Source: Gari tellinella (Eukaryota > Mollusca > Bivalvia > Cardiida > Psammobiidae). From it: a DNA stretch of 64,000 bases. A program made the translations under genes and the position numbers. This document shows positions 21,312-59,620 of this stretch, in pieces. The notes under the pieces were generated by a model, which worked only from the letters and a program-made list of their open reading frames with translations, ran no database searches and was not told the DNA's origin. The stretch spans positions 46,711,786 through 46,775,785 of the forward strand of contig OV277862.1 in NCBI GenBank assembly GCA_922989275.2, given 5' to 3'. Numbering within the stretch: the first letter of the stretch is position 1; every line of letters starts with the position of its first letter.

Positions 21312-21536
21312 AAAACGCAAACAAAACGCAAACACAATGCATTAACATGAAGAAAGCTACATTTCTTTTTCGCATTTGTCAAGATTTACTTTAATCAGAG
21401 TTGCAAACAGTTTGGAGCCTAATCAGACGCCGGATAACCCGGCGTCTGATCTGGTTCTAAACCGTTTGCAATTGATTAAAACGTTTTAGCGTAAACGCGT
21501 TTATTGGAAAGGGATACATGTAACGTGTTCCCCACT
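21312..21536 (+). mobile_element. Family A MITE, 5'-truncated, with TACATGTA insert
   Basis: Left terminus missing. The hairpin GCCTAATCAGACGCCGG/CCCGGCGTCTGATCTGG is intact. At 21515-21522 it reads GGATACATGTAACGTG where other copies read GAATAACGTG. Confidence 0.85.
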
Positions 21537-21545
21537 ATATTTTGA

Positions 21546-21784
21546 TTAACACTTTCACCTGTGAAATTTTTAATAGCAAATTCAAGTTTCCAATTAAATC
21601 TAGTCAATTTTTGACAATTTTGAACATTTTTGCATTTTCAACATGACAAACAGTATAGACCCTGTTCAGTGGATTTCCTCTCGTCTGGGTCTACACTGTT
21701 TTTATATGACAGCTGTACTTTTTTAATAGGGACATTGTTGGTAAGGGACTAGTTTATTCGTGGCTAGAGTTGAATGTGTTAAAC
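21546..21784 (+). mobile_element. Family B2 MITE, full length with TTAA ends
   Basis: 239 bp between TTAA (21546-21549) and TTAA (21781-21784); ends TTAACACTTTCACC and GAGTTGAATGTGTTAA. Outer hairpin arms ACAGTATAGACCC and GGGTCTACACTGTTT remain, the inner TGATCAGA part is decayed. Confidence 0.87.
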
Positions 21785-22205
21785 TGTTAATTATGATTTA
21801 ACGGGTTGACACGACACGTTTTTAGCCCAAAATATGTTTTCCTTCTCTACAACCATATAAGCTAAGTAATAATATTCCAAACACGTGATAATGATTACAT
21901 GTAACATTCTGACCTTGAGATACCGTAAACATATTTTTTAAGGCTAACCCTTCGCTTGCTAGTCGCTACATGTACCTAACTAGAAATTTCAAACAATTGA
22001 GATCCAGACTTTGTGCTGTGCTGCCAATCGCGGTGTTTGATCTGGAACCAATCGTTTTGATCCTCGTGTTAATATCTATAGAGACTAAAATGGTATTAAG
22101 CTTATATTTTAAACTACATTTGCAGACGACACGTTTTAAACAGACGATATTGAAGCAGGCGAAGAACCGACACGTGATAAACATAATCATTCCCGCCTGG
22201 TGCTA
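21785..22205. other. No recognisable feature
   Basis: Two overlapping opposite-strand frames (21966-22263) without domain features. Octamers TACATGTA near 21898 and 21968. Confidence 0.45.
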
Positions 22206-22700
22206 TAGTGGAGAAAACGTCATTCTTTCCCGTTTAACCCTTTCACTACCAAATTTTCCGTGAATTTTTTACCCCTTCACCGTTTCATTGTCGTCTCTTC
22301 AATATTGCTGTCTGCAAAGTCGTTTCAAAGTTAAATTCAAGGCAGTACATTGTATGGCTGAAGAAATTTCAAAACGAGTTTCAAACAGTTTGGATCCTGA
22401 TCAGACGCCGCGTGACGCGGCGTCTGATCAGGATCCAAACTGTTTGCAAACGCGCTTTGAAGCGTGATTGAGAGTGAAAGGGTTAAGCGCTAACGAAAAA
22501 CAAACGCATCGCAAAGGAAATGAAAAAAAATACAGCTATTAGCAAAGTTTAACAATTAATTTTAATCTGACATGCAAACAGTTCGGAGCCTGATCAGACG
22601 CCGGGTTAACCGGCGTCTGATCTGGCTTCAAACTGTTTGCAATGGAAATAATAGTTAGGGTTAACGCCTTTATTTGGAAAGAAAAACGTCATCTCCACTG
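22206..22700 (+). mobile_element. Family A MITE, split by family B
   Basis: Left terminus TAGTGGAGAAAACG and CATTCTTTCCCGT, then a family B insertion at its TTTAA, then the rest: GCGCTAACG, hairpin GCCTGATCAGACGCCGGG/CCGGCGTCTGATCTGGC and terminus ATCTCCACTG. Confidence 0.92.
22234..22486 (+). mobile_element. Family B MITE, full length, nested in A (reference copy)
   Basis: 253 bp from TTAA (22234-22237) to TTAA (22483-22486), matching the TTAA in the host consensus CCCGTTTAAACG. Termini TTAACCCTTTCACTACC and GAGAGTGAAAGGGTTAA. TTAA targets and CCC ends are typical of piggyBac-type transposases; no transposase is encoded. The hairpin (about 22383-22448) is near-perfect: AAACAGTTTGGATCC, TGATCAGACGCCGCG, TGA, CGCGGCGTCTGATCA, GGATCCAAACTGTTT. 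A short ACGCGCTTTGAAGCGT arm follows. Confidence 0.95.
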
Positions 22701-22702
22701 TA

Positions 22703-22946
22703 CAGTGGATAATCTGTTATTCTTTCTTAATAAACGCGTTTACGCTAAAACTATTATTTGCAGTGCAAACAGTTTGGAGCCAGATCAGACGCCGGGTAAC
22801 CCGGCCTGATCAGGCTCCAAACTGTTTGCCACCAAGATAAAGATGAATTATCAGAATTGTCAAAAAGTTGTATTTTTCTACGTTTGAGTGTTTTGCATTT
22901 GCGAACGTTTGCGTTTAAACGGGAAAGAATAACAGATTCTCCACTG
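22703..22946 (-). mobile_element. Family A MITE, back-to-back copy
   Basis: Starts directly after the TA that ends the previous copy, so the two share one TA. Four bases of the right inner arm are missing (CCCGGCCTGATC), hence 244 bp. Confidence 0.92.
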
Positions 22947-23044
22947 TACCATATCTGGTTTCAAAGTAAAATATTGTTATAGCTTTTGCATTGACAGTAT
23001 CGTCGCAAAAACATATTCAATTACAACTTTGTACACTTGGTCAA

Positions 23045-23209
23045 GCACAGAAACTTAAAGAAGAATGTCAAATAGTTTGGTTCCAGATCAAGCATCAGTA
23101 AAGGATAAAAAGGTTCATGCGTTTACCGTCATTAATGAGTCTGGATCCAAACTATATGCAAATGATTAATCAAGTTGCGATTAAGTTGTTGCAGCATAAG
23201 GGCTAAACA
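23045..23209 (+). mobile_element. Family B MITE, decayed
   Basis: GTCAAATAGTTTGGTTCCAG, ATCAAGC, then TGAGTCTGGATCCAAAC and a tail GCAGCATAAGGGCTAA. Confidence 0.6.
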
Positions 23210-23487
23210 TGTGGTAGTATATACAGGAAATTGCTTGTTCCCATGTAAGAAAGTAATTTCCATTTTAATAAAACGAAATCGTAATTCACGTGTCGCGTAT
23301 CACTAGGTTAAACAAGAACCAATGCTGATCACGTGATGAAGGATGGGTGCTATTTCATTTGAACTTTGAACAAACATACAAATGATAAAACGAGAAACTA
23401 ACAATGCACCAACCATTATCAATGAGTTTTCTACAATTCAGTTGACAGTCTATAAAGGTCATTTGGTTGACAAAAGTCATTTTATAT

Positions 23488-23724
23488 AGTTGGGAAAAAT
23501 GTATTTTTTCCCAATGAACACATTTATGCAAAAAATCATGTACAATGAAACCAGTGTGTAGCCTGATCAGGGGCCTGTTGACCTAACGTCTGATCAAGGC
23601 TCAAACCTGTATACCATACAGGTACAAATTAATTTAGAAATTTCAACAATTTGTACGGTTTTACATATTTTTGCACTGTGTTTCACTTTCGCTTAAAAGA
23701 GAGTGATTGACGTTTTCTCAACTG
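23488..23724 (-). mobile_element. Family A MITE, old, in array unit 1
   Basis: TAGTTGGGAAAAATG...TTTTCTCAACTG. Hairpin weak: GTGTGTAGCCTGATCAGG against CGTCTGATCAAGGCTCAAAC. Confidence 0.75.
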
Positions 23725-24138
23725 TATCCACTTTTGAAATGATGTTTGCATTTAGCTTTCTGTAAACATGCTTTATTTAGTTGTTTTATCCAAGTAAATT
23801 GACACAAAACGTAATGTAATGAAACATAGAAAAGTCGTGATCGGCAGAGTAAGGGATAATACGTATGATAGTATATACAGGAAATTGCTTGTTCCCATGT
23901 AAGAAAGTAATTTCCATATTAATAAAACGAAATCATAATTCACGTGTCTCGTATCACCAGGTTAAACAAGAAACAATCATGCTCACGTGATGAAGGATGG
24001 GTGTTATTTCATTTGAACTTTGAACACACATACAAATGATAAAACGAGATACTTACAATGCATCAACTAGTATTAATGCGTTTTCAACAATACATTTGAC
24101 AGTCCATAACAGTCATTTGGTTGACAAAAGTCCTTGTA

Positions 24139-24387
24139 CAGTGGCGAAAATGATATTATTTCCAATTTAATACATTAATACTTTAAAAAATCATGTCCAT
24201 CGAAAATAGTGTGGAGCCTGATAAGGGACCTGTTGACCTGACGCCTGATCAATGCTCAAACCCGTTTGCAATACAGAAACAAATTAATAGTAAGAAATGT
24301 CAACAATTTGTACTTTTTACACATATTTTGGACTGTGTTTAGATTTCACTTTCGCTTAAAAGAGAGCGAATAACGTCTTTTCAACAG
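24139..24387 (-). mobile_element. Family A MITE, old, in array unit 2
   Basis: CAGTGGCGAAAATG at the left and CTTTTCAACAG at the right; same position within the unit as the copy at 23.5 kb, therefore duplicated with it. Confidence 0.75.
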
Positions 24388-24628
24388 TATCCGATCTAGA
24401 CATGACACTTGCATTGAGATTTCTGTATATATATATATATAACTTTAAGTTATTAAGTTAGTATATCCAAGTAAATTGACACAAAACGTAATGCAATGAA
24501 ACAGAAAAACTTTCAATTAGTCAAGTCGTTATCGGCAGAGTAAGGGCTAAACATGTGTGATGAGTTCAGTAAAGAAATTAATGCCCGTCGATGGCCATCG
24601 ATTGCGAGTTGGCTACCGGTTTGAAATA

Positions 24629-24840
24629 CAGTGGAGGAAACGTAATTATTTCGTTCAAACGCAAACGCATTGCAATGAATTATAGAAAATGACAACATTT
24701 TGACAATTCAGACTACAAGTTTTAATCTGAGTGGCAAAATTGTTGGAGCCTGATCAGACGTCGGGTTACCCGGCGTCTGATCTGGCTTCAAATGTTTGCA
24801 ATGACCGGCGTCTTTTGAAAAGAAAACGTTTTCTTTACTG
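24629..24840 (+). mobile_element. Family A MITE between array units
   Basis: CAGTGGAGGAAACG, shortened subterminal zone, hairpin GCCTGATCAGACGTCGGG/CCCGGCGTCTGATCTGGC, right terminus TTTCTTTACTG. The GTAAACGCG block is deleted. Confidence 0.85.
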
Positions 24841-25186
24841 TACTATGCACGCTGCACACGGGACACAAACTGCTAACCTAAACAGCAAACAATGGTTATT
24901 GAACACGCTAGTGGTAGTATAATTATACAGGAAATTGCTTGTTCCCGTAAAAGATAGTCATTTCCATATTAATAAAACGAAATTATAATTCACGTGTCGC
25001 GTATCACCAGGTTAAACAATAACACATGCTGATCACGTGATGAAGGAAGGGTGCTATTACATTTGAACTTTGAACAAATATTAAAAAAAACAACGAGATA
25101 CTAACAATGCATCAACTATTATTTTTGAGTTTTCTACAAATCAGTTGACAGTCTATAAGGATCATTTGGTTGACAAAAGTCCATGT

Positions 25187-25387
25187 ACTGTGGAGCAAAC
25201 TGTATTCTATACTAATACAATGACGTCCGTTGAAACCAGTTTGTAGCCTGATCAAGGGCATGTTTGCCATACAAATTTAAATAACTGGTAAGCAATTTCA
25301 AGAAGTTTGTATTTTGTAGCATTTTAGTGCACTCTGTTTAGGTTTCGCGTTCGCTTTTACGAGACAAATTAACGTTTTCTCTACTAT
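25187..25387 (-). mobile_element. Family A MITE, old, in array unit 3
   Basis: CTGTGGAGCAAACTG and TTTTCTCTACTATG; the hairpin is reduced to GTAGCCTGATCAAGGGC without its partner. Confidence 0.7.
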
Positions 25388-25560
25388 GTCCGCCTTTGAA
25401 ATGACACTTTCAGAGATATTTCTATAACAGTCGTGAATACGAGTACATGTACGTTGTTATTTCCAAGCACAATGAAATTAAACGTAATGAAAAGAAATGT
25501 AGAAAATAAGAATGTTCAAGATATTGACGCTGCTTCTCCTTATCTGAATGTCACTATGCA

Positions 25561-25690
25561 CAGTGCTACAACGACCCTTCAAACAACAATTCCCTCTTTA
25601 CAAAAATGCTTGCCGTTGTTTCCCTGACAAAACCATTATGCCTAACGCTTTCTCTGCTGAAATATCGCCTTCTTTATAATTTGATTTAGT
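25561..25690 (+). mobile_element. Family D MITE, left part
   Basis: CAGTGCTACAACGACCCTTC, a second AACAATTCCCTCTTTACA, then CCCTGACAAAACCATTATG as in the D copies at 14.5 and 39.3 kb. The hairpin and right end are missing. Confidence 0.65.
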
Positions 25691-25887
25691 ATCTTTGAAT
25701 AACATACTTTTCTAATTCAAACGGAAAAGCCCTCACATCACGGTATACGCCAGTGATAACATTTTTCTATGTATCGACAACTATCTACTATAAATAGAAT
25801 AAAGAAAACTAGACCAAATAGAAACTGGAATCGTCCATTCGAAGCTTTAGAGAAGAAAGGTTAAAATATGCTCTTACATGTAACTCA

Positions 25888-26115
25888 TTGACTGCCAATT
25901 TTTATCGTCTGCTTTAACACTATATCTGCCAAACTGTTGTCTGCATTGGTAGTGTCTTCTGCAATATTTTCAAAGACAGCTTTAGGGCTGTTTTGACTAA
26001 AGAAATGTCGATACGAGTGTCAAACAGTTTCGATCCTGTTCAGTCGCCGCATTACGCGGCGTCTGATCAGGATCAAAACTGTTTGCAAAGTCGCCTTTTG
26101 GCGACGTTGGCATTG
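25888..26115 (+). mobile_element. Family B MITE, nearly complete
   Basis: AACTCATTGACTGCC start, GTCTGC motifs, hairpin CAAACAGTTTCGATCC, TGTTCAGTCGCCGC, ATTA, GCGGCGTCTGATCAGGATC, AAAACTGTTTG, then AGTCGCCTTTTGGCGACG, another small palindrome. The right TTAA is lost. Confidence 0.75.
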
Positions 26116-26400
26116 ACAAGAGTCCATGTATAATAGGGATGCTTTAAGTAAGACGAACACGATTGTTTACAAGATTCTCATTTACAGTTATGGAAATTTC
26201 TAATGGCATGCTATAACTTATTATAATAATAATAATATAGAAAACTTCCACTGGAACTTAATGAATAATCTTCATCCTGCACAAAGCAGCTTCCTATTTC
26301 AAAGATCGCATACAGTATTCAGCGAGGACTCACATATGCCTTGCCTGTTGTCCAATCCTTTTCTTTGAATTAAATGTTGTTACACATGCAACTTTTGTTT

Positions 26401-26528
26401 GGGCAGTCGCTCAGGCTCCAACCTATTTGCCATTTTCACTAAATCAGTATTCTGAATTATCAAGAAACCGCGACATACAACATTTTATAACATTATTTTT
26501 GTTTTTAAACCGGAACAAATAACCCATA
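26401..26528 (-). mobile_element. Family A MITE, right half
   Basis: CAGGCTCCAACCTATTTGCC, ATTCTGAATTATCAAG, ACAACATTTTATAACATT and TTTAAACCGGAACAAATAAC. No terminal CACTG. Confidence 0.6.
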
Positions 26529-26639
26529 ACACTAAAGATTCGATAAAAGCGTCTACACTAGACAAACGGTAATTCAACCGAATTCAAATAAAAGATTACT
26601 TTACCCCTTGCCTTTCCCCTAGTACATGTACAAAAGTAA

Positions 26640-26825
26640 TTCGCAACTAGTTTGGAATTTGATCAGACGTTGTGTCACGCGGCTTAATCAAAACTGTTTG
26701 ACATTCATTTAAATATTTCTTAATAATAATAAGTATAAATGCATGCGAACTAAATTTGAGAAACAAAATCAGACGACAGGTGTTAAAAAATGATGACGTC
26801 ATGGCAGTGACGAGGAAAAACGATT
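26640..26825 (-). mobile_element. Family B MITE, partial
   Basis: CTAGTTTGGAATTTGATCAG, a shortened hairpin, CTGTTTGACATTCATTTAAA, CAGACGACAGGTG, ATGATGACGTCATGG, CAGTGACGAGG. Confidence 0.7.
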
Positions 26826-27175
26826 CGCTGTACACACGTGCCAAAACGTCTGAAACTGAGTATTATTTAAATGTGTCAGAAATATCCAGAAGTGCCATCA
26901 TTTGAATGTGTCATTTTATCCAATTTACATGCATTATATCAAAGAGTCTATATCTTTTGACATCCTATCCTTGCTACAATCAATACAGGCGTATTTACAT
27001 GTAACATACCGGTACAACAGGAACTCTCTGCACTAACCCATATCAAAATAGTGGTTGCTGCTGCTGTTTAAAGCAAGTCGCTGTTTAATAAAAGATGCGT
27101 GATAATCAGAAATATTCTTGAGTGAGCTTTTTGGGAGCACTTTTACAATTAATCCGCCACCAAAATGTCAGTTTT
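26826..27175. other. No recognisable feature
   Basis: Nothing supported in this 350-bp stretch. Confidence 0.45.
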
Positions 27176-27261
27176 ATGGCCAGGTTAATGTTACAAAAAT
27201 GGCCTGATTAATGTAACAAATAAATGGCCAGGTTAATATTACAAGAGATGGCCAATTAATG
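27176..27261 (+). repeat. Minisatellite, 4 units of 22-25 bp
   Basis: ATGGCC(A/T)G(G/A)TTAAT(G/A) followed by TTACAA or TAACAA occurs three times in tandem, with a fourth shortened unit ATGGCCAATTAATG. Confidence 0.85.
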
Positions 27262-27427
27262 TCTACGAAAATACCAAAAAGACTTGCGGACAGATTCTAC
27301 ACTTTACTCTTACCCTAACCCTTGTTTTTGGTGGCAGACCAACTGTAAACCCTAGCCGCTTTTGTAATTTAACGGCAAACAATGATCTAACTATATATGT
27401 TTGTAGTTAGGAAGGAAAGTGACCACT

Positions 27428-34391: not shown

Positions 34392-35628
34392 GCTCGCCTG
34401 TTTAAAATTTAATTCTAAAAACATCTTGTATCGAAAACAAATCGATTTTCAGTTTTGAAAGATTAATAAAAAAAAACCCGTCCAAATCAAATTAACTTGG
34501 TGATTTGAGGTAAATACAACTAAGTTCAAAACATGTAAAAAATTGAAATAAATTAAATCATTTTTTAATTCCAACTTTATAACATCAATGTTTGTTCCCA
34601 ATTGAACCTCCATACAAAATTTCAGCACCCTAGCACAAATATTAAGCTTTAAAACAACCCGTCCAAAAAACTTTAACCTTGGATCACCTAAGTCCAAAAC
34701 ATGCTAAATATTGAAATAAATTATAACATTTTTAAATTCCAACTTATAACATCAATGTTTGACACCAAATGAACCTCCATACAAAATTTCAGCACTCTTG
34801 TACAAGTATTAAACTTTATAACAACCCGTCCAAAAAACTTTAACCTGGGGTTTTGCAACAACAAATCTAAGTCCAAAACATGTTAAAAATTGAAATAAAG
34901 TTTGAATTAAGTTTCAACTTCATAACATCAATGTTTAACCCCAAATGAACCTTCATACAAAATTTAAGCACCCTAGCACAAATGTTAAGCTTTAAAACAA
35001 CCCGTCCAAAAAACTTTAACCTGGGATAAACTAAGTCCAAAACATGTTAAAAATTAAAATAAATTAAATTATTATTAAATTCCAACTTTATTACATCAAT
35101 GTTTGACACCAAATGAACCTCCATACAAAATTTCAGCGCTCTTGTACAAGTATTAAACTTTAAATCAACCCGTCCAAAACACTTTAACCTGGTAATTTGT
35201 AGTCGAAAAACCTAAGTCCAAAACATGTTAAAAATTGAAATAAATTAAAATTATTTTTAAGTTTCAACTTCATAACATCAATGTTTAACCCCAAATGAAC
35301 CTCCATACAAAATGTCAGCACCCTAACACAAGTATTAAACTTTGAAACAACCCGTCCAAAAAACTTTAACCTGGTAGTTTGTAGTTGAAAAACCTAAGTC
35401 CAAAACATGTTGGAAATTGACATAAATTAAAATTATTTTTAAATTCCAACATCATAACATCAATGTTTAACCCCAAATAAACCTCCATACAAAATTGCAT
35501 AACCCTAGCACAAATATTAAGCTTTAAAACAACCCGTCCAAAAAACTTTAACCTTGGCCACGCCTACGCTCACGCTCACTCACGCCGGGGGTATGACATT
35601 AGCTCTGCTGTTCTACGAACAGGCGAGC
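34392..35628. mobile_element. Satellite-bearing element (HINE/pearl-like)
   Basis: An inverted 11-bp sequence brackets the unit: GCTCGCCTGTT at 34392-34402 and AACAGGCGAGC at 35618-35628. The right end also folds on itself (AGCTCTGCTGTTC TAC GAACAGGCGAGCT). Inside lies a tandem array, and after it CACGCCTACGCTCACGCTC and GGGGGTATGACATTAGCTC. This layout of short inverted ends, internal tandem repeats and 3' hairpin is known from Helentron-derived bivalve elements. No protein is encoded. Confidence 0.65.
34476..35570 (+). repeat. Tandem array, seven starts, 167-182 bp units
   Basis: The anchor ACCCGTCCAAA occurs at about 34476, 34657, 34824, 35000, 35168, 35350 and 35532, followed by ACTTTAACCTGG, AAGTCCAAAACATG, ACATCAATGTTT, AATGAACCTCCATACAAAAT and AGCACCCTAGCACAAGTATT. 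Confidence 0.92.
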
Positions 35629-36863: not shown

Positions 36864-37587
36864 TAGCGCCTTTTCCTTTTTAACACGTATTGTGCACAGT
36901 GGAAAATAATAAGGTTTGACAGATCATGCTTCTGTTGTTAGACTTTCAAGCAATAAGGCATTTTCAAACACCTGGATATGATAGTGCCGCAACCAGCATC
37001 CCGTTCACGACTTGTCTTTGAGTTGCTGTAGTTTGCAGTGTCGCAAAAATTGGTCAAACTGTATGTAAATTACATGTACATGTATAAAAGAGAATATTGG
37101 GCCACTGTAAAATTTGGGATAACAAGGTAACCAGACCCAAAGAGTTTGAATTGAGTCTTAGAGTGTTCTCAAGTATTTGATAGGTGAGATTTGAGCATTT
37201 GCTCAACTCTGATCGAGAAAATGCTTAAGACCAATCTGAGACTCAACTCAAACTCTTTACATGTATAACCTTTGGGTCTGGTTCTACGTTTCAGACTGTT
37301 TTAGTCAACAACGTGCCGTACTTTTATTATATGTTTCATTTAGGTTTTTTTAAGAAACGCTTGAAAAAGAAGAAACATTACTTCTGGGAACTTGTAAAGA
37401 CCTTAGAAGTGTTTTTTATTGGGAAGTAAAGGTTTAATACAGCGTTCTTTAAGTTATAAAATAGCCGACCTCTGAGGTAGATAGTATTGTTCCCGTTCAA
37501 ACAAAACTGGAAGCAAATATGTGAAAATAGGTTTACACGTGAATACGTTGGTTCTTTGTAGATGTTTAATATATTTCTGCCAATTTG
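36864..37587. other. No gene; one imperfect inverted repeat
   Basis: At 37125-37280 the words ACCAGACCCAAA, GAGTTTGAATTGAGTCT and GATTTGAGCATTTGCTCAACTC return as complements (AGACTCAACTCAAACTC, TTTGGGTCTGG), giving a roughly 150-bp palindrome of unknown class. Confidence 0.6.
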
Positions 37588-38392: not shown

Positions 38393-38653
38393 AGTGGAGA
38401 ATCTGTTATTCTTTCCCGTTTAAACGCAAACGTACGCAAACGCACGCAAACGCAAAACACTAAAACGTAGAAAAATACAATTTTTTGACAATTCTGATAA
38501 TTCATCTTTATCTTGGTGGCAAACAGTTTGGAGCCTGATCAGACGCCGGGTTACCCGGCGTCTGATCTGGCTCCAAACCGTTTGCAGTGAAAATAATACA
38601 TGTAGTTTTAGGGTAAACGCGTTTATTGGGAAAGAATAACGTTTTCTCCACTG
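38393..38653 (+). mobile_element. Family A MITE with decamer and TACATGTA inserts
   Basis: 261 bp. Against the 246-bp form it gains one ACGCACGCAA decamer in the left subterminal repeat and a 6-bp insertion at 38597-38604, where AATAATACATGTAGTTTT replaces AATAATAGTTTT; one A is missing near the left end. A further CAGCGAAGAAAAACG fragment follows. Confidence 0.92.
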
Positions 38654-39676: not shown

Positions 39677-39858
39677 TAAATCGTTGAAAATATGCTATAT
39701 TTTCCATTTAAATAAAGTTGAATTCAAACGCATTGCAATGACATGTTAATTGTTTTGGGTTTTTATTCTGAACTTCGCGGTCCGTAGTGTCATCCTGGCG
39801 TAATATGATTAGCAGCATTCAAATGTCCCACCATTGTATAACATATTGATAATACCTA

Positions 39859-40114
39859 CAGGGCTGCCATAAGTTGACATGAAAAATCCTAAGATTTCCA
39901 AAATTGCATTTTTCAAGTGCGATTTTACGAATCGTACCTTTATCCTATCGGCTGTTTCTTGTTTTGTTGAAACGTGGCTGCTTAAAGCAGACTGGAAGTA
40001 AAGCAGAATCCGCCTTAAGGCGCATTCTGCTTTACTTTCAGCCTGATTTAAGCTACCATGTACAAGAAAAAAAATCCGAAGATTTAGGAAAAATCCGGAG
40101 AAATGGCAGCCCTG
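39859..40114 (-). mobile_element. Family C MITE, full length with 6-bp TSD
   Basis: 256 bp, flanked by TACCTA at 39853-39858 and 40115-40120. Hairpin arms AAAGCAGACTGGAAGTAAAG, CAGAATCCGCC and complements, with a few unpaired substitutions. Confidence 0.93.
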
Positions 40115-40402
40115 TACCTACCGTACATGTACAATCCTCTTTCAGTATCGCATTACAGTAGAGAATAAATAGGTTATGCTAAAGCAATAATTTTTATAAC
40201 TTCAAACTATTTCCTAGGTAAACAGTATAATTATATCAAGGGCTACACAATTTGTCATTTTGTAATATATTGACTAGATTTATATATACAATATATTTTC
40301 AATTTTCAATTATGGACAATAATGAAATGGGAATTAGAATTGTCCATTTGAAGTTTTTGAAATTAACTGAGTTAAACACACACACACACGCATGTATAAG
40401 TA

Positions 40403-41323: not shown

Positions 41324-41937
41324 CAGTGCTACAGTGGAGAATCTGTTATTCTTTCCCGTTTAAACGCAAACGTACGCAAACGCAAAACACTAAAACGTAG
41401 AAAAGTACAACTTTTTGACAATTCTGATAATTCATCTTTATCTTGGTGGCAAACAGTTTGGAGCCTGATGAGACGCCGCGTTACCAGGCGTCTGATCTGG
41501 CTCCAAACTGTTTGCAGTGAAAATAGTAGTTTTAGGGTAAACGCGTTTATTGGGAAAGAATAACGTTTTCTCCACTGTACATCTCTACAACAACATCCAA
41601 TGGGAGACAAATATTATGTGAGCAGTTCGGATGGTGTTGTTATAGGGAGGGAAATTGGCTTACATTTGCAAACATCTGAAATCAAGACCAAACGCCGTGT
41701 ATCGCGGCGTCTGATCTGGGTTTAAGATGTTTGTCACTTGTCATTGTGTTGTTTTTTCTGTGAAACTGTCCAATATGTAATTTGAGAAAAACAACAGATG
41801 GCAATTTTAAGCAGACGAATTAGCAGCCGTGAAATGTTGGACATACATTGTAATTGTCTTGTTTGGGGGACTAACGGAAAGCGTTGGAATAAGGACGGAA
41901 TCGTTGTTCAGAGGGCCGTTATAGAGAGTGTTCATTG
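41324..41937 (-). mobile_element. Family D MITE, terminus hit by family A
   Basis: CAGTGC, then a family A insertion eight bases into the element, then CATCTCTACAACAACATCC. The hairpin (41668-41735) has ATCTGAAATCAAGACCAAAC and CGCGGCGTCTGATCTGG. The right end AGAGAGTGTTCATTG is followed by TA. About 366 bp without the insert. Confidence 0.82.
41332..41577 (+). mobile_element. Family A MITE nested in a family D terminus
   Basis: 246 bp. Removing it with one TA restores CAGTGCTACATCTCTACAAC, the D terminus. The inner hairpin apex is mismatched (GACGCCGCGTTACCAGGCGTC). Confidence 0.93.
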
Positions 41938-44219: not shown

Positions 44220-44310
44220 GTTTTGGGAAAAGGTGACTACTTACATGTAAAGCAGGTTGAAAGTAAACTGAATGTGCTGCTTTACTTTCAGCCTGCTTTA
44301 AGCTACCATC
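44220..44310. repeat. Family C hairpin with TACATGTA insert
   Basis: GACTACTTACATGTAAAGCAGG at 44235-44256 where other C copies have ACTACTTAAAGCAGG. Hairpin GCAGGTTGAAAGTAAAC/GCTTTACTTTCAGCCTGC; the inner loop is shortened. Confidence 0.75.
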
Positions 44311-44752
44311 TACTATAATAAAGAAAAAAAAAATGCTGTATCAAAACAGCAGTTTTGAAGGCAATCAGTAAAATATTTTGCTGTGATTATGTCTAACATT
44401 TGCAATTTTTCGTATTTTTCAGAAAAAAAAATCAATTCATCCCTAAACAAAGTAGTTTGCTGCTTTTTAGTCCAAAATTTGAAATTGTGTACATTTTGTA
44501 TTTTTTAAGAAATAAAAAATTCAGCCCTGATTCAACCTATATTTTTCTTGGTTCAGTTTGTTTTAGATAAAAACAAGGTATCGCAATTCGTACATGTGCA
44601 TGTAACAACACTGCAGGGAGCCCTATATATTTATTTTCTTGAGGTTTGATTTGCATGAAACTAAACCCATTACTCTATAGAGACTTCGTTTTTACACATT
44701 TAATATATCTTCACTGAAGAACATAATTCCACTTTGTACAGTCGTACATGTA
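44311..44752. other. No recognisable feature
   Basis: AT-rich, several A runs, nothing supported. Confidence 0.4.
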
Positions 44753-44998
44753 CAGTGGAGAAAACATTATTCTTTCCCAATAAACGAGTTTACGCTAAAA
44801 CTATTATTTTCACTGCAAACATTTTGGAGCCAGATCAGACGCCGGGTAACCCGGCGTCTGATCAGGCTCCAAACTGTGTGCCACCAAGATAAAGATAAAT
44901 GATCAGAATTGTCAAAAAATTGTACTGTTCTACGTTGTAGTGTTTTGCGTTTGCGTACGTTTGCGTTTAAACGGGAAAGAATCATAGATTCTCCACTG
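44753..44998 (-). mobile_element. Family A MITE, full length
   Basis: 246 bp, TA-flanked, with scattered substitutions (AACATTTTGGAGCC, AACTGTGTGCC). Confidence 0.92.
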
Positions 44999-45029
44999 TA
45001 ATTATGAACCGTCAGATATATTTTCTATA

Positions 45030-45165
45030 TCCTAGCAGATGGTACATGTAGTTTATCGCAGGCTTAAAGTAAAACAGAATGCGCCTTAATGCGCATTCTG
45101 TTTTACTTTCAACCTGCTTTAGGTGGCCACCTGTCTTCAAAAGTAGAAACAGGTTATGGGTTAAA
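45030..45165 (+). repeat. Family C hairpin with TACATGTA insert
   Basis: CCTAGCAGATGGTACATGTAG at 45031-45051 where the consensus is AGCAGATGGTAGCTTAA. Hairpin GCAGGCTTAAAGTAAAAC, AGAATGCGCC/TGCGCATTCT, GTTTTACTTTCAACCTGC. Element termini absent. Confidence 0.8.
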
Positions 45166-48974: not shown

Positions 48975-49360
48975 TTAATCCTTTCGGCGCCGAAGTCGCA
49001 TAAAAGGCGGCGTTGCAAACAGTTTGGATCCATACAGTGGAGAAAACGTTATTCTTTCCCAAAAAACGCGTTTACCCTAAAACTATCATTTTCACTGCAA
49101 ACAGTTTGGAGCCAGATCAGACGCCGGGTAACCCGGCGTCTGATCAGGCTCCAAACTGTTTGCCACCAAGATAAAGATACATGTAATTATCAGAATCGTC
49201 AAAAAGTTGTACTTTCCTACGTTTTAGTGTTTTGCGTTTGCGTACGTTTGCGTTTAAACGGGAAAGAATAACAGATTCTCCACTGTATCAAATGCCGCGA
49301 GACGCGGCGTCTGATTTGGATCCAAAGTGTTTGACACTCGTATCGATACTGCACAAACGC
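48975..49360 (-). mobile_element. Family B MITE split in the hairpin by family A
   Basis: TTAATCCTTTCGGCGCC start, GTCGCATAAAAGGCGGCG, then GCAAACAGTTTGGATCCA. The hairpin resumes after the insert: TCAAATGCCGCG, AGA, CGCGGCGTCTGATTTGG, ATCC. Confidence 0.82.
49035..49285 (-). mobile_element. Family A MITE in a family B hairpin arm, TACATGTA insert
   Basis: 251 bp. At about 49177-49187 AAGATACATGTAATTATC replaces AAGATGAATTATC. Removing the whole copy and one TA restores a B hairpin arm. Confidence 0.92.
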
Positions 49361-49943: not shown

Positions 49944-50138
49944 ACAGTTGTCGTCTGCTCGTTTCCTCAAATTTAATGTTAGGTAAGTTGAGTACATGTA
50001 CATGTTACATGTACGGTACATGTATATGGTAATGAGTGCAAAATTTGGATTCTGATCAGACGCCGCGTCACGCGGCATCTGATCAGGATTTAAACTGTTT
50101 GCATATGCCATTTTACTCGGGGCATGGAAGTGAAAGGA
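49944..50138 (+). mobile_element. Family B MITE, second copy in tandem
   Basis: AGTTGTCGTCTGCTCG, AAATTTAATGTTAGG, several TACATGTA words (49995-50028), hairpin GCAAAATTTGGATTC, TGATCAGACGCCGCG, TCA, CGCGGCATCTGATCA, GGATTTAAACTGTTTGC, end GAAGTGAAAGGATA. Confidence 0.78.
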
Positions 50139-50913: not shown

Positions 50914-51330
50914 ATAAAGTGGAGAAGACGTTATTCTTCCCCATTTAAAAGCAAACGAAACGCAAACGCCTTGCACTACAGTGGAGAAACTGTTATTCTT
51001 TCCCAATAAACGCGTTTACGCTAAAACTATTACATGTATTTGCAGTGCAAACAGTTTGCCACCAAGATAAACATGAATTATCAGAATTGTCCAAAAGTTG
51101 TACTTTTCTACGTTTTAGTGTTTTGCGTTTGCGTACGTTTGCGTTTAAACGGGAAAAAATAACAGATTCTCCACTTTATCATGTAGACGCTGACATTTTA
51201 TTGAACATTATGAATGCGCATATTAATATGAAGGGCGAACAGTTTGAGACCAGATCAGACGCCGGCGTCTGATCTGACTTTAAACTGTTTGTAATGGAAA
51301 TAAAAGATGTTATTATATGCCTTCGAATGA
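50914..51330 (+). mobile_element. Old family A copy split by family A
   Basis: AGTGGAGAAGACGTTATTC, AGCAAACGAAACGCAAACGC, GCAC-TA left of the insert; right of it ACATTTTATTGAACATT, GCGAACAGTTTGAGACC, AGATCAGACGCCGGCGTCTG (apex deleted), AAACTGTTTG. Confidence 0.75.
50979..51176 (-). mobile_element. Family A MITE, hairpin excised, TACATGTA insert
   Basis: 198 bp. CAAACAGTTTGCCACC shows a clean loss of everything between the outer arms. At 51031-51038 ACTATTACATGTATTTGC replaces ACTATTATTTGC. Confidence 0.92.
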
Positions 51331-51354
51331 TATCGAGCGTTTCCGCGTGTATCT

Positions 51355-51589: not shown

Positions 51590-51761
51590 ACACATTACTA
51601 GTTGGCAGTGCGCTACAGAGTGTTGGATTTAGCTCTCGACGTTTTTGGCGGAAACAACCGATCAGACTCGCGCCAAGGCGCTCGTCAGATCGGCTATTTC
51701 CGCCAAAAACGTCTCGAGCTAAATACATCACTCTGTATCGCACTGTCAACTGGTAATGTGT
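51590..51761. mobile_element. Palindromic fold-back element, about 170 bp
   Basis: ACACATTACTAGTTGGCAGTG and CACTGTCAACTGGTAATGTGT ends; inward CTACAGAGTG, TTTAGCTC, GACGTTTTTGGCGGAAA and complements, centre GCGCCAAGGCGC. No frame. Confidence 0.85.
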
Positions 51762-52011: not shown

Positions 52012-52160
52012 TAATATGAAGGGCGAACAGTTTGAGACCAGATCAGACGCCGGGTTACCCGGCGTCTGATCTGGCTTCAAACTGTTTGTGATTGGGACAA
52101 AAGATGTACATAACGTAAACGCGATTATTGGGAAATAATAATGTCTTCTTCTAAACTATA
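52012..52160 (+). mobile_element. Family A MITE, right half (duplicate of 51.23 kb)
   Basis: TAATATGAAGGGCGAACAG and TTTGAGACCAGATCAGACG repeat the sequence at about 51228-51262; here the hairpin keeps its GGGTTACCC apex. Ends GTCTTCTTCTAAACTATATA, also found at 51800-51818. Confidence 0.75.
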
Positions 52161-52877: not shown

Positions 52878-52941
52878 CATTGACATACAAATGTAACGAG
52901 TTAGTGAGTGTTGGAGCAGGTGTAGCATTACTTGTCTTAAA

Positions 52942-53380: not shown

Positions 53381-53914
53381 CAGTGGAAAAGATGTTATTC
53401 TTTCACAATAAACGCCTTTACCCAAAATCTATTACAGTGGAGAAAACGTTATTCTTTCCCAATAAACGCGTTTACGCTAAAACTATTATCTTCACTGCAA
53501 ATAGTTTGGAGCCAGATCAGACGCCGGGTAACCCGGTATCTTCACTGCAAATAGTTTGGAGCCAGATCAGACGCCGGGTAACCCGGTGTCTGATCAGGCT
53601 CCAAACTGTTTGCCACCAAGATAAAGATGAATTATCAGATTTGTCAAAAAGTTGTCTTTTTCTACGTTTTAGTGTTTTGCGTTTGCGTACGTTTGCGTTT
53701 AAACGGGAATGAATAACAGGTTCTCCACTGTACAGTTTGAAGCCTGACCAGACTCCGGGTTACCCGAAGTCTGACTAGGCTCTAAACTCTTTGCCACTCA
53801 GGTTCCAATGAATATTCAGAATTGGCAAAACCAGATGTTATTTTATACATTTTATTGCAAAGTTATTGGCTTTCGTTTGCGTTTAAACTGGAGAGAATAA
53901 CGTATTTTCCTCGG
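53381..53914 (-). mobile_element. Old family A copy split by family A
   Basis: CAGTGGAAAAGATG, AATAAACGCCTTTACCC, ATCTAT-TA left of the insert; right of it CAGTTTGAAGCC, TGACCAGACTCCGGG, TTA, CCCGAAGTCTGACTAGG, CTCTAAACTC and TTTTCCTCGG. TCCGGG pairs with CCCGAA imperfectly. Confidence 0.82.
53435..53730 (-). mobile_element. Family A MITE with 50-bp tandem duplication
   Basis: TA-flanked. The stretch 53487-53536 (TATCTTCACTGC to GGTAACCCGG) is repeated exactly at 53537-53586, so the left hairpin arm occurs twice. Without it the copy would be 246 bp. Confidence 0.93.
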
Positions 53915-54282
53915 TACACGTGCACTTTATCTCATGGTAAATAATAGTTCTGTTTCAACAAAAGACAGATGTTTGAGGGGATGGTTTGGGGAAACTTGAT
54001 TCACAACATATAAACATTATTCATCACAAATATAACAATTTATCGCATAACGTGGAGTCTCGGAATTGCATAAAGCAATTATATAAATATCATATTCCAC
54101 TAGTGAAATATTATTAATGGGCTCCTGCCCAACCTGGTTCTACACAAGCGCTACTTGTGTTTAAAATTGATATGTGATAAATTGTCAAAACGTTGTAATT
54201 TCTCTACATTTTATAGCAATGCAATTAAAATTGGTTTGGATATGTTTGGGTAGGTTATGGGGTCTTTAGACGGACCGACTTA
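53915..54282. other. Mostly unassigned
   Basis: TTGTCAAAACGTTGTAATTTC and TACATTTTATAGCAATGC near 54180 look like a family A right-half relic. Confidence 0.45.
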
Positions 54283-54474
54283 CAGTGGAGAAAACGTTAT
54301 TCTTTCCCCGATAAACGCGTTTACGCTAAAACTATTATTTCCAATGCAAATAGTTTGGAGCCAGATCCGTCTGTTATTCAGAATTGTCGAAATAATTTCT
54401 TTTTCTACGTTTTATTGCAATGCGTTTGCGTTTCGTTTGCGTTTAAACGGGAAAGAATAACGTTTTATCCACTG
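54283..54474 (-). mobile_element. Family A MITE, hairpin half lost
   Basis: 192 bp. AATAGTTTGGAGCCAGATC then TCTGTTATTCAGAATTGTC: apex and right arm deleted. Right zone GCGTTTGCGTTTCGTTTGCG. Confidence 0.92.
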
Positions 54475-54613
54475 TAACTGTAAACTGAAATGGTTCACTA
54501 GAGGTTTCAGTTGTCTATAGGTGCATTATGTTGCCATACAAAGTTTGAAAGTTCAACATAAAACAGAGTGACAAATAAAATATCGACCACCGCCAAAATC
54601 TTTACTGATACCT

Positions 54614-55506
54614 CGCTCACATTTGCTGTGGGTGCCGTGCGGCGGCCGCACGGCCACAGGGACGTGACACGATTGATATTTGAGAATTTTTCTTTCGAAA
54701 TGTATATATAGAGTCTCTTTATATACATTCTGACATTTTTTTTTCTCAAAAATCAATCGTGTCGCGTCCCTGTGCGCACGGCTAATTATTTCTACGGCGA
54801 GTAGTAATTCCCTGGCCGCCGCAGAATGTCTACGGCCGCCGTGTGATGGGCTCACACTTGCTTCGACTGCCGCGCGGCGAGTTTTTATCTGTTGGTGTTA
54901 AAAAACCCTGCGGCCACCGTACGGTCGCCGTTCAGTCACTGTACGGCGCCTCTACGGCGACTGCAATTTCTAATATACAAACGGCGACCGCACGGCGACC
55001 ATACAGCCGCCGTACATGTACGGCAGCCATGGAAGTCGCGCCAGATGTTCTGCAACCGAAATATGGTGCTCCTGCTGCACAACTTGGTTTTGCTACATGT
55101 TCAAACAACTCATATCAGTCCAACTACACCGTGAACTCCAATGACACATTTGGACAGTACTTAAGAGCATCTAAATCCATGTTTAGATAATATACATATT
55201 TTACATACATGGATATGAACAAAAGTACAAATTCACAATTGGAAAAGTTCCCATTAATTTCCGGCGATCGTACAGTGGCCTTACGGCGACCGGTATGAAC
55301 CATTCTGCGGCTTGTGTTTTCTATGGCCGCCGTATAAATGAAAAAATGTTATAACTCCGCGTTATAATTCTACGGCGAGCTCTACGGCCTATACAATATT
55401 GGGATACGCCGTGCGGCCGCTGTACGGCCGCCGTAGAATCTTTGTGGCCGCCGCAAGATTGTCCCGATTCCACGTTTCTGCGGCCACCGTAGAGCAAATG
55501 TGAGCG
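54614..55506. mobile_element. CG-rich element with subterminal TACGGC clusters
   Basis: Inverted ends CGCTCACATTTGCT (54614-54627) and AGCAAATGTGAGCG (55493-55506). Two zones (about 54640-55030 and 55260-55490) are packed with variants of TACGGC(G/C)(G/A)CCGT in both directions, e.g. CGTGCGGCGGCC, GTACGGCCGCCGTAG and CTACGGCCGCCGTG. An AT-rich middle (55030-55260) separates them. This resembles non-autonomous DNA transposons whose subterminal repeats bind transposase. No target duplication found; a 115-codon frame (54843-55190) has no recognisable domain. Confidence 0.7.
54656..54773. repeat. 118-bp palindrome inside the CG-rich element
   Basis: CACAGGGACGTGACACGATT, GATATTTGAGAA, ATGTATATATAGAGTCTC and complements ending TCGCGTCCCTGTG. 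Possibly an independent MITE inserted in the left subterminal zone. Confidence 0.8.
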
Positions 55507-55537
55507 CACTTTAAACCATCCCCATAGAACGTACATA

Positions 55538-55783
55538 CAGTGGAGAAAACGTTATTCTTTCCCAATAAACGCGTTTACCCTAAAACTATTATTTTCACTG
55601 CAAACAGTTTGGAGCCAGATCAGACGCCGGGTAACCCGGCGTCTGATCAGGCTCCAAACTGTTTGCTACCAAGATAAAGATGAATTATCAGAATTTTCCA
55701 AAAATTGTATTTTTCTACGTTTTAGTGTTTTGCGTTTGCGTACGTTTGCGTTTAAACGGGAAATAATAACAGATTCTCCACTG
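55538..55783 (-). mobile_element. Family A MITE, full length
   Basis: 246 bp, TA-flanked. Followed at 55838-55905 by CAGTGGAGCGTTATTCTTTC and CGGCGTCTGATCAGAATC, fragments of a further copy. Confidence 0.92.
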
Positions 55784-56066
55784 TATGTATGTCTTTTTGC
55801 TGAAATAAATATTATGCCAAAAGATAAGGTACACGTGCACAGTGGAGCGTTATTCTTTCAAGCACATAAACGGCGTCTGATCAGAATCAAGATGGTTCGC
55901 AAGTCAAAAGTAACCTAAGCGGTACATTGTAAAAGGACTGAACAATGTATATGTTCTTGTGAGCGATGTACTCAAACAGGAACATTTTGGAATTCCAAGT
56001 TGTTGGCGGTTACTTTATACCTAATAAAGATTATGTTATGCACAACTTCTGTCATACTTTAGGGTA

Positions 56067-56298
56067 CAATGGAGAAGACGTAAACTCAAAGGAAACGCAT
56101 TGCAAAAAAAATGTTGAAAATGGTCTATTTTTAACAATTCTGATTTTAATTTAAATATGACTGGCACACAATTTGGAGCCTGGTCAGACGTCGAGGTACA
56201 TGTACCCGACGTCTGGTCTGACTCCAAATTGTTTGCAATGGAAAATATAGTTTAAGCGTAAACGCGTTTATTGGGAAATAATAACGTCTTCCCTACTT
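56067..56298 (+). mobile_element. Family A MITE with TACATGTA in the hairpin loop
   Basis: CAATGGAGAAGACG to CTTCCCTACTTTA. Hairpin ATTTGGAGCC, TGGTCAGACGTCGAGG, TACATGTA (56197-56204), CCCGACGTCTGGTCTG, ACTCCAAATTGTTTGC. The change TGGTCAGACGTCG pairs with CGACGTCTGGTC. Confidence 0.85.
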
Positions 56299-56639
56299 TA
56301 TCATTTATATCATGATAGATTATGAATCTTAGTATGAGTATCGATCAAGAGAGGGGTTGGCCATGTAAACATTGATTACTCAGTCATAGTAAATTCCCAA
56401 GCACATATTCGGACGAAAACAACTTTCCCCCATTGAAATCTGGCTATTCAAATATGTATTGCGTGCTTTATCTGATTTCCCCAGTAACATATTTTGACAG
56501 AAAGCACTCCGCCGCCTACGCAAAACGTAATTTGACACACTGTTATTCCTATCCTGTGGTGATATTGTCTGCTTCGAAATTGTCGTTTATAAAAGTTGTT
56601 AATATTAGATTGATACATTTTTTAAGTAAAGAAACATAA
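56299..56639. other. No recognisable feature
   Basis: TTGTCTGCTTCGAAATTGTC near 56566 hints at a family B long arm leading into the next entry. Confidence 0.4.
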
Positions 56640-56752
56640 AGACGAGTATCAAAAAGCTTGGATCCAGATCAGACGCCGCGTTAAGCGGCGTCTGATCTGG
56701 TTCCAATCTGTTTGCAATAATCAGTAAAGTTGCGATCAGCAGGCAAAGGGTA
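56640..56752 (+). mobile_element. Family B MITE, hairpin and right end
   Basis: GAGTATCAAAAAGCTTGGATCC, AGATCAGACGCCGCG, TTA, AGCGGCGTCTGATCT, GGTTCCAATCTGTTTGC, then GCAGGCAAAGGGTAA. Confidence 0.75.
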
Positions 56753-56945
56753 ATTCCTCATCTCGCTAAGTAAGTGTCGTCTGCTAAATTTACCGTCTGA
56801 AAAAATCCTGAGATATGACTTTCCTGCAGATTTTATCAAACATATCACAAAAGTGTCAAACTGTTTAGATGCAGATGAGACGCCGAGTTACTCAATGTGT
56901 CGTCTGGCTCAACACTCTTTACAACGGTTATGACAAGGTCGCTCG
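56753..56945 (+). mobile_element. Family B-like MITE with GATGAGA hairpin
   Basis: AAGTGTCGTCTGC, ACCGTCTGAAAAAATCC, hairpin GTCAAACTGTTTAGATGCAG, ATGAGACGCCGAG, TTACTC, partly decayed right arm GTCGTCTGGCTC. Confidence 0.65.
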
Positions 56946-57427
56946 AAGACAGCGGATGAATAAAGGCATTGAATAGGAATTCCATATATGCACCGATGGT
57001 TATGGGATACAAAGCGGTACAAAACTCAATATTTTCTCCCACACTCCTCCCTCATGGGTTAGATCTTAGAGCCAACGTCTGACATATATCGGCTTTTTCT
57101 GATCTCTATGGGACCTATGGGTATATATATACATGGCATGTCTCAGAGATATGGAATTTAATAAAGCCTTCAGAGCTCACTTAGCTTGTCCACTCCACCT
57201 GCTTCAAAACTGTTTGGTGTCTTTTATTAATTTAACCCTTTACCCGGTCCAATAACTGCACCTTTTTACTTTACTTATTTTGCATATATTAAGCCAAGTT
57301 CTCAGTCAGGAAGCTTTGATTGGGATTTAAGGCACTGTGACACAATACTGGTCAAATAGCGCCGATATGTATGTATGGAGTGAATGTATAAGTACGAAAT
57401 CCTATTTGTTCTGTTTTGCAGTTTCGG
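56946..57427. other. No recognisable feature
   Basis: About 480 bp with nothing supported. Confidence 0.45.
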
Positions 57428-57785
57428 TAAAATGTCGAAAAAATGCGAGATTGCAAGGGTGCAATCTCGCACCTTTTTCGGTACATTTTGTTCATCGAAT
57501 CCTATAGTATTCTATTGTAAAAAAAAAAAAAAACGTCGAAAAAAGATGCGAACATGCAAGGGTGCCATTTTGCATATTTTTTTCGCTGCATTTTGTCCAC
57601 GAATATTATAGTAATCTACATGTATTATAGAAATCGTAGAAAAAGATGCGAGATTGTACCCTAGCAATTTCTCATATTTTTTCGACGTATTTTACAATAC
57701 AATACTATAGGATTTGAGGACACAGTGTACCCAGAAATTATAAGAGAGTCCAACCTTGCAATCACGCATCTTTTGTTTTGGCGTT
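57428..57785 (+). repeat. Array of hairpin units around GCGAGATTGC
   Basis: Three related units at about 57428, 57532 and 57638: AATGTCGAAAAA, ATGCGAGATTGCAAGGGTGC, AATCTCGCA, TTTTTCG, ACATTTTGT. The first has a perfect stem GCGAGATTGC/GCAATCTCGC. ATCCTATAGTATTCTATTGTA separates units and returns inverted at about 57690-57712. Confidence 0.8.
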
Positions 57786-58369
57786 TACCAAAACTGTAAA
57801 ATAGGAGAGAAAAATTGTCCCAACAGGATGCCGTATATATACGTCACTATTTGTGTAGTATTTCCAATATGTGAGGTCAGGTAGTGGGTTTATTCTATCC
57901 TCCCACAATCCCACTGGGGGCCAGCTATAAAGTCCTACATATGAATTATAAGAGATTGTCCAGTGCCTCAACCTACTTTAAGTGGTAATCTGTTTTAAAC
58001 TAAATATGCTTATGGGTAACAGGTTGAATTAACAGGCAGTTCGACTGCAGAAAAATCGTCACGAGTGTACATGTAAATCAGTTTAAAATAAAAAACAAAC
58101 GATCACTTTTTGCTCTGGATCCATTAGGCTTACAAATGCTGGTACATGTATACTTATGTTTTATAATTAATTGGTTCACTCCTTGGTTTTTCCTCTCCTA
58201 TACTAACATTTGCCAACAAATTATACCCATGTCGTATACACCAAGTAAGTTAGCGTCCGATAAGGATGCAATTTGCTTGCTATTTGAATCGATTCCTTTT
58301 TGCAATTATTATTCCTTTAAATCCGACTTTTAGGAATAAAAGCTTGCGGCAATACTTAAACTATTTAGG
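57786..58369. other. No recognisable feature
   Basis: Two short frames without motifs; TACATGTA near 58065 and 58143. Confidence 0.45.
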
Positions 58370-58506
58370 CCGACAATCCCATATATTTGACATTATTCAA
58401 CAAGTGTAGACTCTGATCAGACGCCGCATTATGCGGCGTCTGATCAGAGTCTACACTGTTTGCTGATAGGAACTTCAATATAAAACAAACGACAATGAAA
58501 GGTTAG
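58370..58506. mobile_element. TGATCAGA hairpin with B-like tail
   Basis: A very clean hairpin at 58400-58460: AAGTGTAGACTC, TGATCAGACGCCGCA, TTA, TGCGGCGTCTGATCA, GAGTCTACACTGTTTGC. It combines the outer arm of B2 (GTGTAGAC) with the inner arm of B/A (GACGCCG). Tail ACAAACGACAATGAAAGG. Confidence 0.82.
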
Positions 58507-58854
58507 ACCCGGAACCCTTTAAATATAAAAAGTATTAATCAAATATACAAGCAGAATCAATCGGGTGCAAATCGATTAATCAGACAATGTCCTGTCAGTG
58601 AATGGGGATGATATTTGTTGGAAATCGATCCGTATAGTACCAATTGCTATTTGTATACTCTTGTTGTAAACAGATCAACAGGGATTGAACACCATGAATA
58701 ACGGATTTTGTAAACAGGTCCCAAGTGTTTTCTGACTATTATTAGCTGGCGATATGCTTGCAAACATCTGGTTTGGCTATTAGTGATGCATTACTATGTT
58801 CATGTAGTTCTTTACTACAGAGCTCGTTCATAGTTTTGAAGACAGTAAACAACC
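58507..58854. other. No recognisable feature
   Basis: Nothing supported. Confidence 0.4.
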
Positions 58855-58945
58855 TAAAGCAGGCTGAAAGTGAAGCAGAATGCGCATAAGTGCGCATTCT
58901 GCTCACTGTCACCCTGCGTTAAGCTACATGTACCATCTGCTTGGA
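58855..58945. repeat. Family C hairpin with TACATGTA insert
   Basis: GCAGGCTGAAAGTGAAGC, AGAATGCGCA, TAAG, TGCGCATTCT, GCTCACTGTCACCCTGC, then AAGCTACATGTACCATCTGC (58921-58940) where the consensus is AAGCTACCATCTGC. Confidence 0.8.
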
Positions 58946-59261
58946 TAAAGACAATAATTATTATTATATGTGTTCATGACTGTATAACACTGAACTATTT
59001 GCTTTAGCCAAGGAATAAATTAGAGGCGTAAAAATTCGTGTGTATTGGGTAATTGGATCATATTGAACATTTCAGTAATATCCTTTGTACTATATGACAA
59101 ACGCAATACTATAAAATATATATAATCAAAATATTGTTTGTTTACAAATTGGTTAAACATATGTCTTCTATAATTCACAAGTTGTGTAATACCGGTTATA
59201 ATACATTGTACCACGAAAAGACATAGATCTAATACTAACAAACAAAATTGTATCTAAAGAA
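58946..59261. other. No recognisable feature
   Basis: A 73-codon minus-strand frame without motif; nothing else. Confidence 0.4.
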
Positions 59262-59465
59262 AGAGTTCTTTATTCTGGCTTACATTACACGACAGGAAAC
59301 GAAATACACAATACAATGTAGAAATGTTCAGAAATGAGTCCTATCAGACACTGGTTAACCTGGCATTCTCAAGATCTGGCCCAAACTGTACGCAATGAAA
59401 ATATTTGTTTTAGCATAAGTTCGTTACTGTCATAGAATAACGTACATTGTATTATCTCCTGTACA
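59262..59465 (+). mobile_element. Family A MITE, strongly decayed
   Basis: TTCTTTATTCTGGC, AACGAAATACACAATACAATG, CCTATCAGACACTGGTTAAC, CTGGCATTCTCAAGATCTGG, TTTTAGCATAAGTTCG. Confidence 0.55.
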
Positions 59466-59485
59466 CCGTTATTGTCTGCATTTAA

Positions 59486-59620
59486 AGGTTTCGCGTTTGC
59501 GTTTAGTTTCGTGTACATGTAAACGAGACAGAATTGTTATTCTTTCCCGTTTAAACGCAAACGAAATGAAGCAAAATGCGCTAAAAGGTATAGCAAAAAT
59601 AATTATTCTGAAAGTTCTAT
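59486..59620. mobile_element. Two family A ends, one with TACATGTA
   Basis: GTTTCGCGTTTGCGTTTAG, TTTCGTGTACATGTAAACG (TTAAACG in the consensus; octamer at 59514-59521), then GTTATTCTTTCCCGTTTAAA of a copy facing the other way. Confidence 0.6.

Follow-up and report, generated by a model that had tools for sequence, protein, structure and literature searches.

Palindromic octamers gained at TA sites in a 64-kb stretch of the Gari tellinella genome as probable excision footprints of Tc1/mariner-type transposons

Transposases of the Tc1/mariner family are described as cutting at the 3' ends of the element and two or three bases inside its 5' ends (PMC2170065), and joining of the overhangs after excision is reported to produce a footprint between TA dinucleotides (PMC3878927, PMC4561436). 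For somatic excision of Tc1 in Caenorhabditis elegans, a footprint of four extra bases (+4) is given as typical (78%), and in the germ line of the same animal the element is described as mostly restored by homologous repair (PMC13148408). Here we analyse a 64-kb stretch of DNA from the bivalve Gari tellinella (contig OV277862.1 of assembly GCA_922989275.2; hereafter the window), in which the palindromic octamer TACATGTA is strongly over-represented and recurs as a gain of six bases, CATGTA, at sites that read just TA in related copies. We consider it quite probable that these octamers, as had been proposed in a sequence-only reading of the window, are excision footprints, left by Tc1/mariner-type transposons (TA-target elements with CA...TG ends) that were mostly short, non-autonomous copies. 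The kind of footprint is already known; its density and its near-uniform +6 form are new, and no report of TACATGTA as a scar in a bivalve was found among the literature matches listed.

The octamer and its gain at TA sites

The window contains 49 copies of the octamer, approximately one per 1.3 kb, compared to expectations of 2.18, 2.02, 1.92 and 3.65 under Markov models of orders 0, 1, 2 and 3, respectively, and the highest count among 40 order-3 simulations was 7. A count by eye had arrived at more than 35 copies with a few expected; with 49 present versus ~2-4 expected, the enrichment at TA is confirmed as a real observation and is stronger than first stated. The other palindromes made of the same letters (n = 11) occur only 0-4 times each. 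The border of the word is sharp, since T...A flanks 49 of the 80 ACATGT words while every other flank pair accounts for at most 5. When whatever matches elsewhere in the window was removed by masking (BLAST, E 1e-4), the octamer was the top 8-mer in the 34,398 bases left (30 copies versus 1.4-2.2 expected), and among the fillers of TAxxxxTA in this remainder CATG ranked first with 30, the runner-up reaching 14. Flank information around the octamers drops from 0.20 bit at position -1 to 0.06 at -2 and does not exceed 0.07 as far as -25; given these low values beyond -1, we reject the octamer as a piece of a longer repeat. The commonest flank pair is G...C (10/49).

Two double units are present (here and below, features are listed without a strand unless one is assigned):

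16811..16824, double unit TACATGTACATGTA, one of two doubles
37071..37084, double unit TACATGTACATGTA, one of two doubles

These doubles, together with three octamers grouped within 49993-50024, would suit a (TACATG)n microsatellite or short tandem duplication as the producer of the words. We regard this as highly improbable, because TA(CATGTA)n runs in the window comprise 45 single units and none longer than two, Tandem Repeats Finder detected no period-6 array in the window, and the gains described below begin from bare TA, with no unit there to duplicate. Microsatellite expansion is rejected on account of the dominance of single units and the missing period-6 arrays, in agreement with the sequence-only reading. 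Of the two chains of octamers described in that reading, the one near 16810 is real and begins at 16811, whereas the sequence near 49995 is TACATGTACATGTT, which falls short of a full chain; the full chain at 37071 had been overlooked.

To locate the gains, we compared the window with itself and collected gaps of 2-40 bp with good flanks. This gap census yielded 60 rows of insertions, in which a single insertion is sometimes placed in more than one way. All five 6-bp rows fell at octamers: four read TACATG before TA (21515, 38597, 44242 and 51031), and the fifth places the insertion at 51031 differently. We also carried out an empty-site test, in which each octamer was compared with its relatives with and without CATGTA. 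A spanning relative was available for 18 of the 49 octamers, and at 17 of these 18 more relatives favored the empty form. Among 526 other TANNNNTA sites that served as a control, 173 had relatives, and the empty form was favored at 27 of the 173; by eye, about two thirds of these 27 are edges of a repeat family of the window (family A, described below), TA/TAT runs or overlaps with an octamer. The octamers within copies of families A and C were as follows:

21515..21522, family A copy with TACATGTA gained at TA; 43/44 relatives favor the empty form; TA in 41/43 ungapped alignments
38597..38604, family A copy with TACATGTA gained at TA; 53/59 relatives empty, 1 full; TA in 42/49
44242..44249, family C copy with TACATGTA gained at TA; 10/11 relatives empty; TA in 10/11
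45043..45050, family C copy with TACATGTA, gain in common with 58925; 6/7 relatives empty, the seventh being the 58925 copy
49178..49185, family A copy with TACATGTA, net +5; 30/46 relatives empty, 0 full; TA in 6/11 ungapped alignments
51031..51038, family A copy with TACATGTA gained at TA; 49/52 relatives empty; TA in 39/48
56197..56204, family A relative with TACATGTA in its hairpin loop; 55/64 relatives empty; net +6 with two adjoining substitutions
58925..58932, family C copy with TACATGTA, gain in common with 45043; 5/6 relatives empty
59514..59521, family A relative with TACATGTA gained at TA; 22/22 relatives empty and with TA

The octamer is present at every single-octamer position named in the sequence-only reading (the one placed at about 49180 begins at 49178). 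The 6-bp gain at TA that had been claimed for the listed copies is clean at 21515, 38597, 51031, 59514, 44242 and 45043/58925, the last two sharing one common gain, but not at 56197, where a net +6 is accompanied by the two substitutions, or at 49178, where only 5 bp were gained. Most relatives carry TA under the site at the well-covered octamers. This is less clear at 49178 and at 56197, where TA or AA lies under the octamer depending on which of two alignments is chosen (49 and 48). The remaining test results include some weak rows: 14477 itself lies at an edge of family A, the octamers 16811 and 16817 form one chain with one deciding relative among three, and 25444 and 58068 have a single relative each, that of 58068 reading TC rather than TA. 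The exception is octamer 44745, whose one relative favors the full form.

A further gain lies within a protein-coding frame for a reverse transcriptase (RT):

60746..60753, - strand, TACATGTA in an RVT_1 reading frame, a gain of two amino acids; the two residues are absent in 82/86 spanning homologues

We found 105 RT homologues, of which 89 aligned around the site at E <=1e-3 and 86 span the octamer; 82 of the latter lack the two residues, two differ in length by one residue and two by none. At seven control points in the same RT alignments, six showed at most one length change, and residue 565 showed 8/83. The gap census, the empty-site test and the RT homologues thus bear out the earlier claim that the gains occur at TA rather than at non-TA sites. 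That they reflect a sequencing or assembly artefact has a negligible probability, since the gains vary copy by copy, one is common to two repeat copies (45043 and 58925), and one keeps a frame of 627 amino acids open.

The 627-amino-acid frame itself (60525-62408, - strand), which is open despite the 6-bp gain, contains an RVT_1 domain (Pfam) and belongs to a non-long terminal repeat (non-LTR) retrotransposon. Named homologues include metagenome-assembled genomes of Thiodiazotropha, one Mercenaria protein and two weak fish matches; Thiodiazotropha are symbionts of lucinid clams. When the RT alignment was compared with viral contigs, its pattern matched 25 stretches, 0 of which were confirmed as relatives. 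Comparison with genome contigs gave three loci, one of them (L001) a 4-kb contig in a Bathymodiolus symbiont record; the octamer is not present in these three loci, which at 13 kb in total are too little to judge.

Scar variants and decay

Almost all scars are +6; a minority are +7 and carry a single extra A or T in the middle. Among one-base insertions, only TACAATGTA/TACATTGTA, which carry the extra central A/T (+7), are clearly enriched (10 copies versus 1.35-1.97 expected); TACCATGTA and a few two-base central variants reach 2-3 copies, with <1 expected. Relatives were available at five of the ten +7 sites, and the empty form was favored at four of these five: two (22346 and 41844) have TA under the site, 59443 has mostly TT, and 48248 gives no clear picture. 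At the fifth, 19196, the full form was favored over the empty one. The two sites with TA are as follows:

22346..22354, + strand, +7 variant TACATTGTA gained at TA; 5/6 relatives empty; TA in 4/4
41844..41852, + strand, +7 variant TACATTGTA gained at TA; 2/2 relatives empty, both with TA; also in the gap census

TACATTGTA occurs eight times (5796, 7215, 19196, 22346, 41844, 55923, 59202 and 59443) and its complement TACAATGTA twice, an imbalance that may be due to chance. Neither of two pairs of +5 words is enriched in the window: TACAGTA/TACTGTA occurs 15 times versus 15.5-18 expected, and TACATTA/TAATGTA 17 times versus 18-26. The empty form was favored at 0/2 of the TACAGTA/TACTGTA sites with relatives.

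One-base substitution neighbors of the octamer total 57, compared to 43.7 (order 2) or 57.5 (order 3) expected. Decayed octamers would accordingly number 0 to ~13 per 49 intact ones, that is, at most ~3% decay per base, a value that resembles the median divergence of 32 family A copies (2.6%). A selected binding site or functional palindrome, having arisen by point mutation or being maintained by selection, would agree with the perfect palindrome, its sharp borders and its rank as top 8-mer in unmatched sequence. The octamer arises, however, through 6-bp gains in copies of miniature inverted-repeat transposable elements (MITEs) and in the RT frame, and its substitution neighbors show no clear excess. 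We therefore reject a binding-site or substitution origin as the main cause and consider it very unlikely.

Candidate source elements

TACA...TGTA ends are present in at least three terminal inverted repeat (TIR) elements of the window, namely family A, family C and a single-copy element, D. As a control for the TIR scan, the reversed sequence gave 5 chance pairs.

3941..4176, + strand, example of family A, a MITE with ends TACAGTGGAG...CTCCACTGTA; 250-bp consensus, both TAs counted
39857..40116, family C element, both of whose ends carry TACAGGGCTGCCAT; TIR 15/18; second copy at 5930-6188
51614..51737, element D with ends TACAGAGTG...CACTCTGTA; 124 bp including both TAs; TIR 16/18; single copy
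44745..45000, octamer plus complete 250-bp family A copy (44751-45000); the octamer's second TA is the copy's left TA

Family A has CA...TG ends with TA at both ends, and 25 of the 30 terminal bases are identical between its two ends. We recovered 34 end-paired copies and aligned 32, leaving two out; 22 of the 32 diverge by at most 3% from the 250-bp consensus. Any member of family A or C, or element D, would leave CA and TG, and no individual scar could be assigned to one of them. Two family A copies, the one at 44751-45000 and one whose end is at 14478, share a TA with an octamer, and other octamers lie inside family A copies (3 within the 32 listed copies versus 4.9 expected), including octamer 38597, whose copy diverges by 1.6% from the consensus; together, these arrangements indicate that scarring took place both before and after family A insertions.

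We also compared the bases beside these sequences. At 92 octamer half-sites, a count that left out those adjoining another octamer or a family A end, the neighboring base is A in 20, C in 11, G in 33 and T in 28 cases, which differs from all TAs (G at -1, p = 0.0012). The 66 half-sites next to paired family A copies have A 30, C 9, G 14 and T 13, and the unpaired family A ends (n = 55) have A 19, G 16, T 15 and C 5.

Family A is very dense, its 32 aligned copies extending across 2683-63708, and has a long central palindrome; a 10-bp unit of the ACGCAAACGT type varies in number inside its copies (4876-4904, 38424-38454 and 60247-60277). Element D has long inverted arms. Family A patterns gave zero matches in viral contigs, and Rfam returned nothing at gathering score for the window. 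A tandem array of a 182-bp unit (2.9 copies) is located at 35031-35554.

Excision, repair and relation to known systems

The gain at TA, its specificity, the abundance of the octamer and the presence of fitting element ends in the same DNA are observations on which the case for excision footprints is built. In such an excision, an element located between two TAs would be released by transposase cuts that leave two terminal bases of each end. A cut of two bases at CA ends would place a 3' CA on each side of the break, and end joining that keeps both 2-base overhangs whole would convert TA to TA-CA-TG-TA, i.e., TACATGTA, its CA and TG deriving from the element ends; overlapping of the two 3' CA overhangs would instead give +4. 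Host end joining may fill across the unpaired overhangs and sometimes add one base, giving the +7 form with a central A/T. Alternatively, the same scar could result if the cut were made blunt two bases inside. The excisions that made the scars would presumably have occurred in the germ line.

Several points weigh against excision footprints. No site that is filled in one copy and scarred in another was seen among the window copies, and octamers are no nearer to family A copies than other TAs are within the window (p = 0.84). The bases beside octamers and beside paired family A copies differ (p = 0.0098), which argues against family A as the sole source; as a single source it is unsupported by the flank bases. 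The Pfam search, as regards a transposase, covered the RT open reading frame only. The +4 words TACATA/TATGTA, which we take to be the letters of the C. elegans Tc1 +4 scar, are not enriched in the window (52 versus 63-70 expected), and only 4 of the 15 such sites with relatives favor the empty form. Among these four, 6505 and 53191 lie at edges of family A, the evidence at 10284 is weak, and 52107 is a real candidate:

52107..52112, TACATA in a family A copy that has diverged, candidate for a +4 scar; 35/44 relatives empty, 1 full

Some of these observations would fit another mechanism that inserts CATG and a copy of TA at TA with no excised element, such as the capture of tiny DNA in repair or a nuclease with fill-in: no filled site was seen, and neither the uniform +6 length nor the preference for G at -1 (p = 0.0012) matches family A. 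The inserted letters, on the other hand, are those that the ends of the window's TA elements would leave, and we know of no mechanism that makes such an insertion without an excised element. We consider this explanation unlikely. Excision footprints remain the best reading, to which the CA...TG ends and the TAs conform; the original proposal is partly supported, the unsupported part being family A as the source, since at least two other TIR elements fit and the flanks differ.

Tentatively, and with rather less than even confidence, we suggest that the genome may contain a dense archive of germ-line scars, which would be uniform since host end joining keeps both unpaired 3' CA overhangs and occasionally adds a central A/T. 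The scar spectrum would then record the repair machinery (for example, template-bridging family X polymerases) and not only the transposase, and the same word would be expected in excess across related bivalves. To our knowledge, nematodes lack template-bridging family X polymerases.

Footprints are usually studied singly in reporter assays, whereas here they can be counted in a genome together with their polarity, variants and rough ages. If the same holds genome-wide, the departures of cut-and-paste elements could be estimated, scars could be compared with surviving elements, and the break-repair route used by the germ line would become visible. There is also a caution: strong enrichment of a palindrome in an animal genome can reflect mutational debris rather than a regulatory motif.

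The closest systems differ from the window mainly in the form of the scar. Tc1 and Tc3 of C. elegans have CA...TG ends, as do the TIR elements of the window; the TA target is likewise shared, and on the excision reading the 2-base staggered cut and the end bases left between two TAs would be as well. In contrast, the typical somatic Tc1 scar is described as +4, whereas in the window +6 dominates and +4 is unenriched; since germ-line repair in C. elegans mostly restores the element, a scar-filled genome would imply a different germ-line habit. Sleeping Beauty and Frog Prince are likewise TA elements that are described as leaving end bases between TAs, but the footprint given for them is C(A/T)GTA, i.e., +5 (PMC3878927), and the corresponding words TACAGTA/TACTGTA are those found unenriched above. 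Stowaway MITEs mobilized by Mariner-like elements, as portrayed in PMC4561436, are short, non-autonomous and TA-duplicating, and their excision leaves TAs and terminal bases. The Stowaway scars are described there as small insertions or deletions, whereas those of the window are nearly uniform.

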